From assembly GCA_017427775.1 (NCBI GenBank), contig JAFRSD010000015.1, forward strand, positions 1 to 64,000: DNA of 64,000 nt, given 5' to 3'. A model generated the notes under the pieces. The model did not search any database. It worked only from the letters and a program-made list of their open reading frames with translations, and had not been told where the DNA came from. Shown here piece by piece: positions 46,755 through 56,664 of this stretch. The translations under genes and the position numbers were made by a program. Numbering within the stretch: position 1 is the stretch's first letter; each line of letters starts with the position of its first letter. The DNA is from Lachnospiraceae bacterium. GTDB lineage: Bacteria; Bacillota; Clostridia; Lachnospirales; Lachnospiraceae.

Positions 46755-47780
46755 TTAAACGTTGCCGTATGTCTTGCCGTAACGGATAATGGCAAGCAGA
46801 CAGAGCACGGCCAGAATTACAAGGTAGTACATATAGAAAGAAATCTTGGTCCCCGGGCGTTTCTCCTTATCATAGCCGAGCTTGCCGCGATAAAAACGGA
46901 ACAGGAACGGCGGAAGACACGCGCCGGCACCGAAGAAGATGCGTCCGTCATCCGGTCCCATGAGCATTCCGAAGGTCAGTCCGATGATGCCGCAGACCAG
47001 TGCCTGCAGGTCCGGCTTGCTCTTCAGCAGGATAACGGCAAATACGAGCATGAGCGTCAGGATCGGCGACTCCACGATCTTCAGCGACTGCAGGAAGAAA
47101 CCTGCGAGGAAGCCGATCGTAAAAAGGAGCACCATGCACGCTCCGAGGAGTCCCCTCCATGCCATTTTCGTGCTCGGAGACATAAACTTCTGATACAGAA
47201 GATCGAGAAGCCATATGAAAAGCAGCGCGAACATGACCGTAAAAATGTAATTGAGCATCGGGAACTCGCGCCATTTAAGCAGATATTCCATCTGGCCGGC
47301 TTCATCCAGGCCGTTGAAATAATCGATATTCATCTGCGCGTTTCTGGCATTGTCATAGCTGCACAGATAATTCATCGGAAACTGCGCGAGGACGCCGCAG
47401 ATCAGCAGCCGCAGAAAGTATTTCGGGCGGCTCGATGTCCGGTAATAAGCCTCTACGGTAACAAATACCGCGATCGGAACACCCATGATCCCGACACCGC
47501 GGAGCACGTGCCGCATCTGCTGCGTCGGGTCGAAATACACGATTCCGGCAACCCCGACAGCCGTTACAAGCAGAAGCAGACATTTCAGCATGGCAAGATT
47601 GATCGCGATCTTGCGTTTCTTCGGCTGTTCCGGAACAACCGCCGCTTCCCGCTCCTTCATCCGTTCTTTCTTGATCTGGTCCTTGGAGACCTTCTTCGGA
47701 ACGTTCTCGTTCGGGTTCGGCAGGTTCTTATTCTGCTTCCGGAGTTTTCGCTTTCTTTCGCTTACGTTGTTCTGTGCCAT
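46755..47780 (-). CDS. TraX-family membrane protein
   Basis: 341 aa. A charged N-terminus of about 60 residues (many Lys/Arg) precedes about nine hydrophobic segments. The block VEAYYRTSSRPKYFLRLLICG followed by AQFPMNYL is characteristic of TraX-family proteins, named after the F-pilin acetylase, but chromosomal members in Firmicutes are of unknown function, possibly acyltransferases. ATG at 47780 follows GAGGAG. The first 53 bp overlap the end of the upstream GH13-like gene in another frame, so the two are likely coupled. Confidence 0.75.
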   Translation of the reverse strand: MAQNNVSERKRKLRKQNKNLPNPNENVPKKVSKDQIKKERMKEREAAVVPEQPKKRKIAINLAMLKCLLLLVTAVGVAGIVYFDPTQQMRHVLRGVGIMGVPIAVFVTVEAYYRTSSRPKYFLRLLICGVLAQFPMNYLCSYDNARNAQMNIDYFNGLDEAGQMEYLLKWREFPMLNYIFTVMFALLFIWLLDLLYQKFMSPSTKMAWRGLLGACMVLLFTIGFLAGFFLQSLKIVESPILTLMLVFAVILLKSKPDLQALVCGIIGLTFGMLMGPDDGRIFFGAGACLPPFLFRFYRGKLGYDKEKRPGTKISFYMYYLVILAVLCLLAIIRYGKTYGNV

Positions 47781-49704
47781 TGTTCTCCTCACTCTGCAGT
47801 ACTACTATCGTTCTGGGCGCGACGGCAAGTCTCGCCTCCTTGACCGGTCCTTCCGGTGTTTCGGGGCAGGTCGAAAGGACAACCTTCCATGTCCGGCCGC
47901 CGGGCAGATGCGGTATTTCAAAGATCTGCTCTTCCCAGTACATATTGAAGATCAGATAGAAAGAATCGTCATGTTCGTTCTTGCCGCGCAGGGCAAATTC
48001 GCCGCCGAGCAGGATTCCGACACTCCGGTTATACGGACTCTCGTCCGGTCTCCACGCGGTCTTGCTGTGAACGGACACATCCGGACATCCGCAGGAAAGG
48101 TAATCGGTTCCGCGGAGTCCCAACGGATTATGCAGCGCGGGATGTGCCGCGCGTAGTTCCGCCATACGCTTCACAAACGCCGTCAGCTCCGTATTCTTCC
48201 TGGCTTCCTTCCAGGATACCCAGCCGACCGGATTGTCCTGGCAGTAGGCATTGTTGTTGCCGTCCTGCGTATTGCCGAACTCGTCGCCCGCAAGGATCAT
48301 CGGAACCCCCTGCGAAAGGAACATCGAAAGAAGCGCGTTCTTGCGCATCCGAAGACGCAGTTCGCGAATCCGCTTGCGGCGGTCCGGTCCTTCGCTTCCG
48401 CAGTTCCAGCCGTAATTGTAATCGCTTCCGTCGAGCCCGCGTTCGCCGTTTGCTTCGTTATGCTTTACGTCATACATATAAAGGTCGTTCAGCGTAAAGC
48501 CGTTATGGTCCGTGATATAATTGATGACCGCCGAACGGTCCGGGCGCCGTATGATGCGGGAGGCAAATGCGCCTGCCATCCCTTCATCGCCCTTGAGGAA
48601 TTTTCTCGCGTCGGTACGGAAACCGTCATGGAATTCCGCAAGCGTGACCGTAGACGGAACGCGGTCCTTCGGATAGATCGCCGGAATATCCCAGCCCCCT
48701 CCGATGAGTTTCGTGCCGGACAGGTAAGGATCGCCTGCAAGAAGCAGCGGATCGGTCTGCTCAAGATTGATCCGGAAACCGTCCACATGATATTCCTTTA
48801 CCCAGAAACGAAGCGCGTCCACAAGCATGCAGCGGTTCGTCCCGACCGGGATATTCATCTCCATCAGTACTTCGATCCCGCGCTCATGGAGCTTCTTAAC
48901 CATCGTTTTGAATTCCGTATCCGCGCGCTCCGGTTTCGATGCATAAGAGGCCTTCGGCGCGAAGAAGAAATAGTGGTTCGTGTAGCCCCAGTAGTTGATG
49001 CGGTACTTTCTGACATCCTCGGGAGCATCTGCCTCCGTTGACGCCTGTTCCACCATGTTTTTGTATGTACTACTTCTGTAGAATGTCGAGGAGAAGAAGG
49101 ACGGGATATCCTCATTTTCCTCGGGCTCATCGATTTCATTGAACTCTGTACACGGCATTAAGAGCACCGCGTTAACGCCGAGGTCCTTCAGATAGTCGGC
49201 CTTCTCCGCGATACCGAGATACGTTCCCTTATGCGAGACGCCGGCCTCCATCGTGAAGCCGCGCACATGAAGCTTATAGAGTACCATGTCCGTGTAAGCG
49301 ATTGCCGGATGGCGGTCCTCCTGCCACGAAAAATCATGGAAGGCCACAAGTGAACGGAGCGATTTGCGTTCCTTCTGCGACAGCTTGTGTCCGAACACGC
49401 CGCGGCCGAGCACCAGCTTCGAATACGGGTCAAGAAAATGCTCTCCCTTTGTCTCATACAGATAAGTGCGGTCCTTTGCCGTATCGGCAACCTTTACGGA
49501 GAAGATGTCACCGTAACGGTCCTCCTCGCCGAGGCGGATCGAATAAAGCGGCGTCTTGCCTTCGCCGTCATAGACATGCAGCACAACTTCCGAAACGGAA
49601 GGAACCGCAACCGCGAAGTTTACGAACCGTCCCGTGACCGTCGTTCCGAGCACGGACGGGTCGCCTGCCGCAACCGTTATGTTGTAATCCCCAAGTACCT
49701 TCAT
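47728..49704 (-). CDS. GlgX/isoamylase-like GH13 protein lacking catalytic residues (pseudoenzyme)
   Basis: 658 aa with an N-terminal CBM48-like beta domain (about 10-95), a GH13 barrel (about 140-560) and a C-terminal beta domain. Overall it follows glycogen debranching enzymes: INYWGYTNHYFFFAP, AEFHDGFRTDARKFLKGD and KHNEANGE-type blocks are kept. The active site is not. The nucleophile Asp is Asn313 (DGFRIN), the acid/base Glu is Gly336 (KLIGGGWD where family members have KLIAEPWD) and the third Asp is Asn401 (TDHNGFTL). Region I (DVVxNH in family) is EMNIPVG. The frame is intact and well expressed-looking, so it is not decaying. A glucan-binding or regulatory role is inferred; glgB lies 5 kb upstream in the same run. 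Confidence 0.85.
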   Translation of the reverse strand: MKVLGDYNITVAAGDPSVLGTTVTGRFVNFAVAVPSVSEVVLHVYDGEGKTPLYSIRLGEEDRYGDIFSVKVADTAKDRTYLYETKGEHFLDPYSKLVLGRGVFGHKLSQKERKSLRSLVAFHDFSWQEDRHPAIAYTDMVLYKLHVRGFTMEAGVSHKGTYLGIAEKADYLKDLGVNAVLLMPCTEFNEIDEPEENEDIPSFFSSTFYRSSTYKNMVEQASTEADAPEDVRKYRINYWGYTNHYFFFAPKASYASKPERADTEFKTMVKKLHERGIEVLMEMNIPVGTNRCMLVDALRFWVKEYHVDGFRINLEQTDPLLLAGDPYLSGTKLIGGGWDIPAIYPKDRVPSTVTLAEFHDGFRTDARKFLKGDEGMAGAFASRIIRRPDRSAVINYITDHNGFTLNDLYMYDVKHNEANGERGLDGSDYNYGWNCGSEGPDRRKRIRELRLRMRKNALLSMFLSQGVPMILAGDEFGNTQDGNNNAYCQDNPVGWVSWKEARKNTELTAFVKRMAELRAAHPALHNPLGLRGTDYLSCGCPDVSVHSKTAWRPDESPYNRSVGILLGGEFALRGKNEHDDSFYLIFNMYWEEQIFEIPHLPGGRTWKVVLSTCPETPEGPVKEARLAVAPRTIVVLQSEENNGTEQRKRKKAKTPEAE

Positions 49705-49742: not shown

Positions 49743-51377
49743 TCAGTCATCCTCTTCCGCATTAACAACAAGCTTCTGACGCTTTCTTGCCATCTCGTCG
49801 TTTGCGAGATATTCATCGTATGTGGTAACCTTATCGATCAGCGTTCCGTCCGGAATGATCTCCATGATACGGTTTGCAACCGTCTGGATAAACTGATGGT
49901 CAAGCGCGGTAAAGAGCGCCACGCCCGGGAACTTGATCAGACCGTTGTTGAGTGCCGTGATGCTCTCCATGTCGAGGTGGTTGGTAGGCTCGTCAAGGAT
50001 CAGTACATTGGCTCCCATGATCATCATCTTCGAAAGCATAACGCGCACGCGCTCGCCTCCGGAAAGTACGTTAACCGGCTTCACGCCGTCGTCGCCTGCG
50101 AAGAGCATGCGGCCGAGGAAACCGCGGACATAGGTGACATCCTTCTCCGGGGAGAACGGCATCAGAAAGTCAACGATCGACTCGCTACCGCGGAACAGTT
50201 CGGTGTTGTCCTTCGGGAAGTATGCCTGCGTCGTCGTAACGCCCCATTTGACTTCACCGGAATCGGGCTCCATCTCACCCGCGAGAATCTTAAAGAGCGC
50301 CGTCGTTGCAAGCGTATTGCCGCCGACAAATGCAATCTTGTCTTCGCGTCCCGCAACGAACGAAATGTCATCGAGAAGCTTTACGCCGTCGATCGTCTTC
50401 GAGATGTGCGAAACCGTCAGCACTTCGTTTCCGATCTCACGCGCCGGGCGGAAATCAATGTAAGGGTATTTACGGCTTGAAGGACGGATGTCGTCAAGCT
50501 CGATCTTCTCAAGGGCACGCTTACGGGAAGTCGCCTGCTTCGATTTCGAAGCGTTCGCGGAGAAGCGCTGGATGAATTCCTGCAACTCCTTGATCTTCTC
50601 CTCTTTCTTACGGTTGGCTTCCTTCATCTGGCGGATCATCAGCTGGCTGGACTCGTACCAGAAGTCATAGTTGCCGGCGTACAGCTGGATCTTCGAATAG
50701 TCGATGTCGGCAATGTGCGTACATACCTTATTGAGGAAGTAACGGTCATGGCTGACAACGATAACGGTATTGTCGAAATTGATCAGGAACTCTTCGAGCC
50801 AGCTGATCGCGTCGAGATCGAGGTGGTTGGTAGGCTCGTCGAGAAGCAGGATGTCGGGGTTTCCGAACAGTGCCTGCGCAAGCAGAACCTTAACCTTGTC
50901 GTTGCCGTTCAGCTCGCTCATCTGGGTGTAGTGCATATCGGGCTCGATTCCGAGTCCGTTCAAAAGCGTTGCCGCGTCAGACTCCGCTTCCCATCCGTTC
51001 AGTTCGGCAAATTCGGTCTCCAGCTCGCTCGCCTTGATTCCGTCTTCCTCGGTAAACTCTTCTTTCGCGTAGATGGCGTCCTTCTCCTGCATGATATCAT
51101 AGAGACGCTTGTTGCCCATGATAACCGTATCGAGAACGTTGAACGCGTCGTATTTGAAGTGGTCCTGCTGCAGGAAGGAAAGCCGCTGTCCCGGCGTGAT
51201 GACAACCTCGCCCTTGCTGGGCTCAAGCTGTCCGTTCAGGATCTTTAAGAAGGTGGATTTACCGGCGCCGTTGGCACCGATGATTCCGTAGCAGTTGCCT
51301 TCCGTAAATTTGATATTCACATCTTCAAAAAGCGCTTTCTTTCCGATGCGAAGGGTAACATTGCATGCCTGTATCAT
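49743..51377 (-). CDS. ABC-F ATPase with one degenerate ATP site (YkpA/YbiT-like)
   Basis: 544-aa soluble twin-ATPase of the ABC-F family, which acts on ribosomes rather than in transport. The first domain has an intact Walker A GANGAGKST (34-42), Walker B and His210, but its signature is LNGND (156-160) instead of LSGGE. The second domain has an intact signature LSGGE (438-442) and Walker B, but its Walker A is GGNTLATT (352-359), with Thr for the lysine, and its H-switch histidine is Leu492. The three changes fall on the same composite ATP site. The linker (about 245-290) is Lys/Glu-rich. ATG at 51377 follows GGAGAGG. Sequence style is closest to the YkpA/YbiT group. Confidence 0.9.
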   Translation of the reverse strand: MIQACNVTLRIGKKALFEDVNIKFTEGNCYGIIGANGAGKSTFLKILNGQLEPSKGEVVITPGQRLSFLQQDHFKYDAFNVLDTVIMGNKRLYDIMQEKDAIYAKEEFTEEDGIKASELETEFAELNGWEAESDAATLLNGLGIEPDMHYTQMSELNGNDKVKVLLAQALFGNPDILLLDEPTNHLDLDAISWLEEFLINFDNTVIVVSHDRYFLNKVCTHIADIDYSKIQLYAGNYDFWYESSQLMIRQMKEANRKKEEKIKELQEFIQRFSANASKSKQATSRKRALEKIELDDIRPSSRKYPYIDFRPAREIGNEVLTVSHISKTIDGVKLLDDISFVAGREDKIAFVGGNTLATTALFKILAGEMEPDSGEVKWGVTTTQAYFPKDNTELFRGSESIVDFLMPFSPEKDVTYVRGFLGRMLFAGDDGVKPVNVLSGGERVRVMLSKMMIMGANVLILDEPTNHLDMESITALNNGLIKFPGVALFTALDHQFIQTVANRIMEIIPDGTLIDKVTTYDEYLANDEMARKRQKLVVNAEEDD

Positions 51378-51456
51378 ATATTCCTCTCCATTCAAAAGTT
51401 TATCCGGGCAAGGCACTCCCAAAGGAAGCGCCTCGTCCGGCATCCCTCATCGTTTC

Positions 51457-54435: not shown

Positions 54436-56664
54436 CTATTTGCCGGAGGGCGTGCACGTAAAGATCGCGCATCCGAGCGGCGGGATCGTGATCACAACGG
54501 AATTGTCACGGCCGTCCGTCCGGACTGCCTTCGACTGTTTCGCGCGCGGATTCGTGTTGCCCGCGCCGCCGTAGATCACAGCGTCACTGTTGAAGATTTC
54601 TTTGTATTTGCCGGCGAACGGAACACCGAGCGCCTGCTTCTCATAAACGACCGGCGTGAAGTTGCACACAATGAAAAGCGTGTCGTTCGGGTCTTCGGTC
54701 TTGCGGACAAATGTTACGATGCTGTGGTCGGCATCAAGGCAGCTCATCCACTCGAAGCCGTCCGGATCCTGATCGAGCTCGTAAAGAGCGGGATGCGAAC
54801 GGTATACATTGAACAGATCCTTCATCATGTGGTGGATCTTCGCGTTCAAAGTGCCGCCGCGGTCACCCTCGACCGGATCGGTCAGAAGATGCCACTCAAG
54901 GCTCTTCTCCTCGTTCCATTCGGAAAGCGGAGCCATATCCTGTCCCATGAACAGAAGCTTCTTGCCGGGATGCGTCATCAGGTAACTGTATGCCACGCGA
55001 AGGTTCGCGAACTTCTCTTCGTATGTGCCGGGCATCTTGCCTAACATCGAGCCCTTGCCGTGTACAACCTCGTCATGCGAGAATACAAGGATGAAGTTCT
55101 CACTGTAAGCGTAGATCATGCTGAAGGTGAGCGATCCGTGGCAGCCTCTTCTGAACAGCGGGTCCTGCCGCATGTAGGTCGTGAAATCGTTCATCCAGCC
55201 CATGTTCCACTTAAAGTCGAAACCGAGACCGTCATCATTGAGGTCGCCGGTGATCTTCGGCCATGCGGTCGACTCTTCGGCGATCATCAGACGTCCGGGA
55301 AGTCTCTTCTTTACGATCGAATTCAGGTGCTTCAGAAGTTCGATTGCTTCGAGGTTCTCGTTGCCGCCGTACATATTGGCAACCCACTCGCCGTCATTCT
55401 TGCCGTAATCGAGATACAGCATCGAAGCGACAGCGTCCATGCGGATACCGTCGGCATGGTAAACGGAAAGCCAGAACAGCGCGTCGGCGATCAGGAAGTC
55501 GGAAACCTCCGGACGGCCGTAATTGAAGATCAGCGTGCCCCAGTGCGGGTGGCTTCCCTTTCTCGGATCCTGGTGCTCATAGAGACAGGTTCCGTCGAAG
55601 TTCGAAAGGCCGAACGTATCTCTCGGAAAATGAGCCGGCACCCAGTCAAGGATTACGCCGATGCCCTGCTCATGCATATAGTTCATGAAGAACATGAAGT
55701 CCTCGGGCGAACCGTAGCGTGCGGTAACACTGTAGTAACCGGTCACCTGATAGCCCCAGGAAGCGTCGAGCGGATGCTCCATCACGGGCATCAGTTCGAT
55801 GTGGGTGTAGCCCATCGACTTCACGTATTCCGCGATCATTACGGCGAGCTCGCGGTAGTTATAGAAGCTTCCGTTCTCGTCCGCGGGTTTCTTCCACGAG
55901 CCGAGATGTACTTCATAGATATTCATCGGAGACTTTTTGAAATCCTTCTCCTCAAGCGCCTTCAGATACGCTTCGTCGGTCCACTGGAAACCGCGGAGGT
56001 CGGCAATCTTGCTTGCCGTTCCCGGACGAAGTTCGGAAGCGTTTGCATACGGGTCGGCCTTCAGGTAGGTAAGTCCGCCCTTCACTTTCAATTCGAACTT
56101 ATACAGCTGTCCGGGCTGTGCCTCGGGAAGGAACAGTTCGAACACGCCGCTTCCGCCGAGTCTTCTCATCGGATTGCGGCGGCCGTCCCAGTGGTTGAAC
56201 TCGCCGACCACGCTGACGCGGAGCACATTGGGCGCCCAAACGGCAAAGTAGACACCGTCCACGCCGTCGATCGTCATCGGATGTGCGCCGAGCTTCTCAT
56301 AAATGGTGTAATGGATGCCTGCGTTGAATGCATGCAGGTCGTCCTCCGAAATCTGCGGAGCGAACCGGTAGGCGTCCTCGCACACACGCTCTCCTTCTTC
56401 ATACGTGAAGCGGAGCGTATAACGCGGGATCTTCTTTCCGGGGATGAGCACGGCGAAGAACCCGCCGTCATCCTCTTTCTCCATCGGGATTTCTTTGGAA
56501 CCGGTGCAGACATACACACCGTTCGCATCGGGGTCAAATGCGCCGATCAGCACTCCTTCCGGCGTTACTCTCGGTCCCAAAACCTGATGTGGATTATCAT
56601 GTTCCGAATAAACGACAGCCTCAATCTCGGGCCAATTCATCAACTTGTACAGTTCTTCGTTCAT
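54436..56664 (-). CDS. glgB: 1,4-alpha-glucan branching enzyme GlgB
   Basis: The 742-aa GH13 enzyme makes alpha-1,6 branches in glycogen. An N-terminal CBM48-type region (about 1-230, with AVWAPNVLRVSVVGEFNHWDGR) precedes the barrel. The catalytic residues are intact: nucleophile Asp in DGIRMDAVASML, acid/base Glu in MIAEESTAWP and third Asp in FSHDEVVHGKGS. This contrasts with the GlgX-like protein downstream. ATG at 56664 follows AAGGAG. Preceded by yesL at 48 bp. Confidence 0.95.
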   Translation of the reverse strand: MNEELYKLMNWPEIEAVVYSEHDNPHQVLGPRVTPEGVLIGAFDPDANGVYVCTGSKEIPMEKEDDGGFFAVLIPGKKIPRYTLRFTYEEGERVCEDAYRFAPQISEDDLHAFNAGIHYTIYEKLGAHPMTIDGVDGVYFAVWAPNVLRVSVVGEFNHWDGRRNPMRRLGGSGVFELFLPEAQPGQLYKFELKVKGGLTYLKADPYANASELRPGTASKIADLRGFQWTDEAYLKALEEKDFKKSPMNIYEVHLGSWKKPADENGSFYNYRELAVMIAEYVKSMGYTHIELMPVMEHPLDASWGYQVTGYYSVTARYGSPEDFMFFMNYMHEQGIGVILDWVPAHFPRDTFGLSNFDGTCLYEHQDPRKGSHPHWGTLIFNYGRPEVSDFLIADALFWLSVYHADGIRMDAVASMLYLDYGKNDGEWVANMYGGNENLEAIELLKHLNSIVKKRLPGRLMIAEESTAWPKITGDLNDDGLGFDFKWNMGWMNDFTTYMRQDPLFRRGCHGSLTFSMIYAYSENFILVFSHDEVVHGKGSMLGKMPGTYEEKFANLRVAYSYLMTHPGKKLLFMGQDMAPLSEWNEEKSLEWHLLTDPVEGDRGGTLNAKIHHMMKDLFNVYRSHPALYELDQDPDGFEWMSCLDADHSIVTFVRKTEDPNDTLFIVCNFTPVVYEKQALGVPFAGKYKEIFNSDAVIYGGAGNTNPRAKQSKAVRTDGRDNSVVITIPPLGCAIFTCTPSGK

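Follow-up and report, generated by a model that had tools for sequence, protein, structure and literature searches.

A probable non-catalytic GlgX paralog of Lachnospiraceae, predicted to bind glycogen and functionally parallel to plant ISA2

Non-catalytic isoamylases are already known as a kind from plants, in which ISA2 (PDB 9j6x_C, 9xvi_C), a GH13_11 paralog devoid of the nucleophile and of most catalytic residues, has been kept throughout the green lineage, with a role described as unclear (PMC12510319). ISA2 carries an additional N-terminal beta-sandwich, and the CBM48 of GH13_11 proteins is reportedly not glucan-binding (PMC12510319). Among GlgX proteins (GH13_11; TIGR02100; PDB 7u39, 2wsk, 2vnc), that of S. 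venezuelae contacts acarbose at the -1 subsite through W222, Y224, H271, D342, E378, W380 and H449, and other sugars through R212, E470, N534 and Y536; the residues by which it binds c-di-GMP are reportedly missing already in TreX and in the GlgX of E. coli (PMC9530166). Searches of the open literature turned up no account of a non-catalytic GlgX in bacteria, and a 2024 review on the alpha-glucan enzymes of prokaryotes, searched by word, did not mention a GlgX pseudoenzyme. The protein reported here is bacterial and related to GlgX.

This protein, hereafter pseudo-GlgX, is encoded in the window, by which we mean the whole 64,000-nucleotide stretch of Lachnospiraceae DNA that was analysed (Table 1). 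Its frame was open over 658 codons, with AGGAAGGA preceding the ATG start, and lay in a run with glgB, as the first-pass annotation, made from the sequence of the window, had stated. Against the NCBIfam GlgX model TIGR02100 the protein scored 357.4 bits and did not reach the curated cut-off of 640.9, and its best solved relative was plant isoamylase 1 (1.6e-78). The debranching-enzyme fold that had been read from the sequence was recovered in an AlphaFold2 model (pLDDT 86.9, pTM 0.88), in which a CBM48, a (beta/alpha)8 barrel and a C-terminal beta-sandwich were present, with Z values of 43-49 to GlgX/ISA structures (rice ISA1, Z 49.1, rmsd 2.1 Å over 572 residues; S. venezuelae GlgX, Z 47.5; E. 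coli GlgX, Z 45.5). Full-length fold, domain order, motifs of the C-terminal half and outer contacts are shared with GlgX, whereas the catalytic triad and region I are missing from pseudo-GlgX, two of its active-site loops are deleted and its profile score of 357 bits lies below the cut-off of 641. Among proteins outside GH13_11, PulA (TIGR02104), a type I pullulanase, was the next-best relative in fold and sequence, with 143 bits and a Z of about 38; unlike pseudo-GlgX, the Lachnospiraceae pullulanases examined keep an active triad, and they fall outside the clade formed by GlgX and pseudo-GlgX.

Table 1. Positions in the window of the pseudo-GlgX gene, of selected residues of its product and of neighbouring genes.
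Feature	Position	Strand	Remarks
Pseudo-GlgX gene	47728..49704	-	658 aa; N-terminal CBM48-like domain followed by a TIM barrel and a C-terminal beta-sandwich
W239 (S. venezuelae GlgX W222), glucan contact	48988..48990	-	invariant, 62/62
Region I, residues 282-287 (E-M-N-I-P-V)	48844..48861	-	canonical GlgX: D-V-V-(F/Y)-N-H
Residues 289-292, where the loop is shortened from 48 residues to 4	48829..48840	-	common to all clade members examined
N313, aligned with the nucleophile Asp	48766..48768	-	alignments to ISA1 and canonical GlgX
Residues 316-318, where ~14 residues of the loop after the nucleophile are missing	48751..48759	-	alignment to canonical GlgX
G336, position of the acid/base Glu	48697..48699	-	alignments to ISA1 and canonical GlgX
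N401, aligned with the third Asp of the triad; H400 just before	48502..48504	-	alignments to ISA1 and canonical GlgX
E421 (S. venezuelae GlgX E470), outer glucan contact	48442..48444	-	invariant, 62/62
N485-A-Y487 (S. venezuelae GlgX N534, Y536), outer glucan contacts	48244..48252	-	invariant, 62/62
TraX-family membrane protein	46755..47780	-	start overlaps the 3' end of pseudo-GlgX by 53 nt
ABC-F ATPase gene, directly upstream of pseudo-GlgX	49743..51443	-	38-bp gap
GlgB branching enzyme, head of the same co-directional, operon-like run	54436..56664	-	

Catalytic columns were compared with those of 65 canonical GlgX proteins and of plant ISA1. The ISA1 motifs FRFD, IAEAWD and HDGFTL read FRIN, IGGGWD and HNGFTL in pseudo-GlgX, and the Asp, Asn and His of region I aligned with E282, P286 and V287; the replacement of the triad by Asn313, Gly336 and Asn401, and the loss of region I, as claimed in the first-pass annotation, were thus both borne out. 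Each of these six positions was canonical in 65/65 GlgX and degenerate in 62 independent relatives, indicating that the substitutions are due neither to chance nor to assembly error. In these relatives, which are full-length members gathered by a genome-contig scan and whole-genome searches, no triad acid was kept in 47 cases, one in 13 and two in 2 (L016 and the Anaerocolumna member L014, which has kept the Glu and an Asp); comparison with orthologs had been proposed with the annotation, and an intact D/E/D triad was found in 0/62. Site by site, the Asp at 313 was essentially absent, the Glu at 336 was kept in 7 members and the Asp at 401 in 9. The single apparent Asp in the nucleophile column occurred in L139 (GFVLDEW), from which both other acids are missing. 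His was never found at 287, H400 was kept in 23 members and the Arg in only 18. Two deletions, one after region I (48 residues reduced to 4) and one of about 14 residues after the nucleophile, were universal in the pseudo-GlgX clade, and both loops were present in every canonical GlgX examined. Ten columns that hardly vary in GlgX lie in the deleted loops, so that the cleavage pocket of pseudo-GlgX is dismantled and its loss goes beyond point mutation. Long insertions near the former acid/base position were observed in three members (L132 of G097, L135 of G248 and L142 of G110), with frames of 739-759 aa.

Sugar contacts were mapped from the alignment of S. venezuelae GlgX and pseudo-GlgX (chain index = residue number + 3; R212 unmapped). 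The -1 contacts fell on W239, Y241, V287, N313, G336, W338 and H400, and the contacts to other sugars, E470, N534 and Y536, on E421, N485 and Y487. The column of Y241 held 58 Y and 4 F, and W239, E421, N485 and Y487 did not vary (62/62). Judged from these alignments, putative sugar-gripping residues remote from the scissile bond have been kept and the cutting positions released. It is mainly because the outer contacts are invariant while the cutting positions vary that retained glucan binding appears probable, and the earlier suggestion of a glucan-binding protein gains indirect support from these contacts together with the intact predicted fold. The motifs 'GNNNAYCQDN' and 'KHNExNGE' may have been retained for folding, not for sugar contact.

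In a phylogeny from which catalytic and loop columns had been removed, pseudo-GlgX and canonical GlgX were split by one branch (SH-aLRT 100), and rooting on four Lachnospiraceae pullulanases placed pseudo-GlgX as a monophyletic group (100) inside the GlgX/isoamylase group (100), which is consistent with a single origin. Its distribution was assessed in 250 Lachnospiraceae genomes, nearly all one per genus, with classes assigned by TIGR02100 score (600-696 bits for canonical Lachnospiraceae GlgX; 267-361 bits for pseudo-GlgX orthologs, the best stretch of which, at about 230-260 bits, covers the C-terminal half only). On this basis pseudo-GlgX was present in approximately 191 of 250 genera (about 76%) and canonical GlgX in 85, with both types in 69 and the pseudo form only in 122. 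At the same score threshold, pseudo-GlgX was found in none of about 327 genomes of the class and none of about 128 of the order sampled outside Lachnospiraceae. Its presence in most genera of Lachnospiraceae and in no other family sampled shows it to be a lineage-specific protein family and not a case of scattered decay. The ratio dN/dS was 0.062 for the pseudo-GlgX genes of two congeneric species (94% identical) and 0.109 between those of the window and of locus L012 (73% identical; dS near saturation), values that argue for a selected gene and not a decaying one. The idea of a selected pseudoenzyme, also put forward in the first-pass annotation, is strongly supported by this single clade, its occurrence across the family, the lack of intact triads and the low dN/dS.

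Taken together, these results are best explained, with a probability that we put at roughly 60%, by a non-catalytic GlgX paralog that is probably glycogen-binding and constitutes a functional parallel of ISA2 in bacteria. The cutting machinery has been lost, and the fold and part of the sugar-gripping surface have been kept; pseudo-GlgX therefore probably binds glycogen and does not digest it. According to this explanation, the GH13_11 GlgX paralog would have arisen once, in Lachnospiraceae or on their stem, and been kept since; it would bind alpha-1,4-glucan chains through the outer GlgX groove (W239, Y241, E421, N485, Y487) without cutting them. Bound in this way, it could be associated with glycogen as a binding protein, a scaffold or a regulator, in a functional parallel to plant ISA2, and might steer branching or mobilisation or tether partners to the glycogen particle. 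Both proteins are GH13_11 paralogs from which the nucleophile and the majority of catalytic residues have disappeared and which selection has retained lineage-wide, yet they also differ: pseudo-GlgX starts at the CBM48-like domain, and ISA2 works in complexes with ISA1, whereas pseudo-GlgX mostly occurs without canonical GlgX. With the A1 profile, ISA1 (417 bits) scored much higher than ISA2 (219-221 bits), which makes descent of pseudo-GlgX from ISA2 unlikely; on sequence grounds, its origin is likely to be independent. It would be the second non-catalytic isoamylase retained across a lineage besides plant ISA2, now in bacteria, and the question of why a dead isoamylase is kept becomes testable in culturable organisms, without the complication of a plant ISA1 partner. 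Where GlgX is inventoried by homology, pseudo-GlgX is likely to be counted among the debranching enzymes of a family that is dominant in the gut, and the presence of the dead form alone in about half of the sampled genera (122/250) raises the question of how these debranch their glycogen.

The gene neighbourhood bears on a different reading, in which the GlgX fold has been repurposed, without glucan binding, for a membrane or signalling role with the TraX-like protein and DUF5662. The minus-strand order in the window was DUF624-like, GlgB, MscS, glutamine synthetase III, ABC-F, pseudo-GlgX, TraX and HtpG (the names DUF624, MscS, GSIII, ABC-F and HtpG were assigned by inspection), with gaps of 9-48 bp followed by the overlap between pseudo-GlgX and TraX; the three closest loci (L010-L012) preserve this order. 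Among orthologous loci, ABC-F was found directly upstream of pseudo-GlgX in about 27, TraX directly downstream and co-directional in about 22 (window included) and DUF5662 downstream, either first or after TraX, in 24. Of the 62 loci with enough flank, about 37 had TraX or DUF5662 directly after pseudo-GlgX in the same direction, frequently with an overlap; among 68 loci of canonical GlgX, neither gene was a neighbour save in one locus where both GlgX types are adjacent. DUF5662 (PF18907), which shows conserved His/Asp-rich motifs, lay just downstream in L016, L018, L035, L038, L104, L107 and others, in a subset of genera different from that with TraX neighbours. The glgB gene was found within 32 kb of pseudo-GlgX in 20 of about 97 genera listed, on the same strand in 20/20 (binomial p = 1e-11 if chance is taken as 3%, the events not being independent owing to shared ancestry). 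The first-pass annotation had also named a possible regulator of GlgB/GlgP. Linkage to glgB is enriched, but the closest conserved partners are the TraX and DUF5662 genes, not glg genes. We know of no glycogen role for either of them.

Besides this association, the repurposed fold is favoured by the faster divergence of pseudo-GlgX relative to GlgB (72% and 85% identity, respectively, between the window and L012); within the run, pseudo-GlgX diverged faster than GlgB or glutamine synthetase, at about the rate of MscS and more slowly than TraX. However, invariant outer glucan contacts next to a variable cleavage site are what selected sugar binding would be expected to produce, and TraX itself was poorly conserved (39% identity to that of L012) and missing from many loci. 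That of the window was a weak member of its family (PF05857, 27.7 bits, cut-off 25), and the only other TraX returned by a search of the same genome was a different one, on contig C35. Weighing both sides, we regard loss of glucan binding in favour of such a role as unlikely, although it is the alternative that survives best. It is likewise rather doubtful that pseudo-GlgX is a Lachnospiraceae-specific glycogen-binding pseudoenzyme, independent of ISA2, that couples particles to the TraX membrane protein and DUF5662; were this coupling true, gut bacteria would possess a glycogen control needing no canonical debranching enzyme.

Less probable still is that pseudo-GlgX serves as an obligate non-catalytic subunit in a heterocomplex with canonical GlgX, as ISA2 does with ISA1. 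The fold and the kind of loss are the same as in ISA2, and in two genera the pseudo and canonical genes were adjacent, within about 2 kb of each other (L110/L147 in G113; L125/L143 in G108), but canonical GlgX was missing from 122 of the 191 genera bearing pseudo-GlgX, including the genome of the window, the two types were distributed independently (Fisher p = 0.21) and the N-terminal beta-sandwich of ISA2 is lacking. An obligate partnership is therefore largely refuted. Continued enzymatic activity, through catalytic residues that are unusual or have moved elsewhere, would have precedent in GH13 enzymes with an aberrant catalytic triad (PMC5347038), and Asn occupied the third catalytic position in 42/62 members and the first in 29/62. 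Nevertheless, no replacement acid was conserved clade-wide at the three catalytic sites; among the clade-wide residues uncommon in GlgX, which include K251, W551, D534 and D542, only the latter two are acids, and both follow the last barrel strand in sequence. With the His of the -1 subsite and the two covering loops gone and the Arg mostly missing, retained catalysis appears very improbable. A decaying pseudogene or an assembly artefact, to which one split same-genus copy (G158) might point, although that copy lies across two contig ends, is refuted by frames open in dozens of genomes, a dN/dS of 0.06-0.11 and the wide distribution.

The glycogen gene complement of the genome was also searched. 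Genes for GlgA (contig C31), GlgP (C43) and two GlgB-like proteins (C11, C39) were found, and neither a canonical GlgX nor a GDE_C protein was detected; a GH133-type debrancher that could supply the missing activity was thus not found. With GlgA, GlgP and GlgB present and no GlgX or GDE_C, glycogen is probably made and phosphorolysed. The only other GH13 protein was maltodextrin-glucosidase/cyclomaltodextrinase-like (contig C1), and probably either this protein carries out debranching or the step is missing. Across the family, GlgA was detected in 246 and GlgB in 248 of the 250 genomes, so that their co-occurrence with pseudo-GlgX has no power to support a link to glycogen. The second GlgB-like protein (596 aa; L009, G000 contig C39, 2583-9191) was encoded between two SGNH/GDSL-type esterase-like genes, with products of 600 and 440 aa, the latter bearing a lipoprotein-type signal, which is an unusual setting for a branching enzyme.
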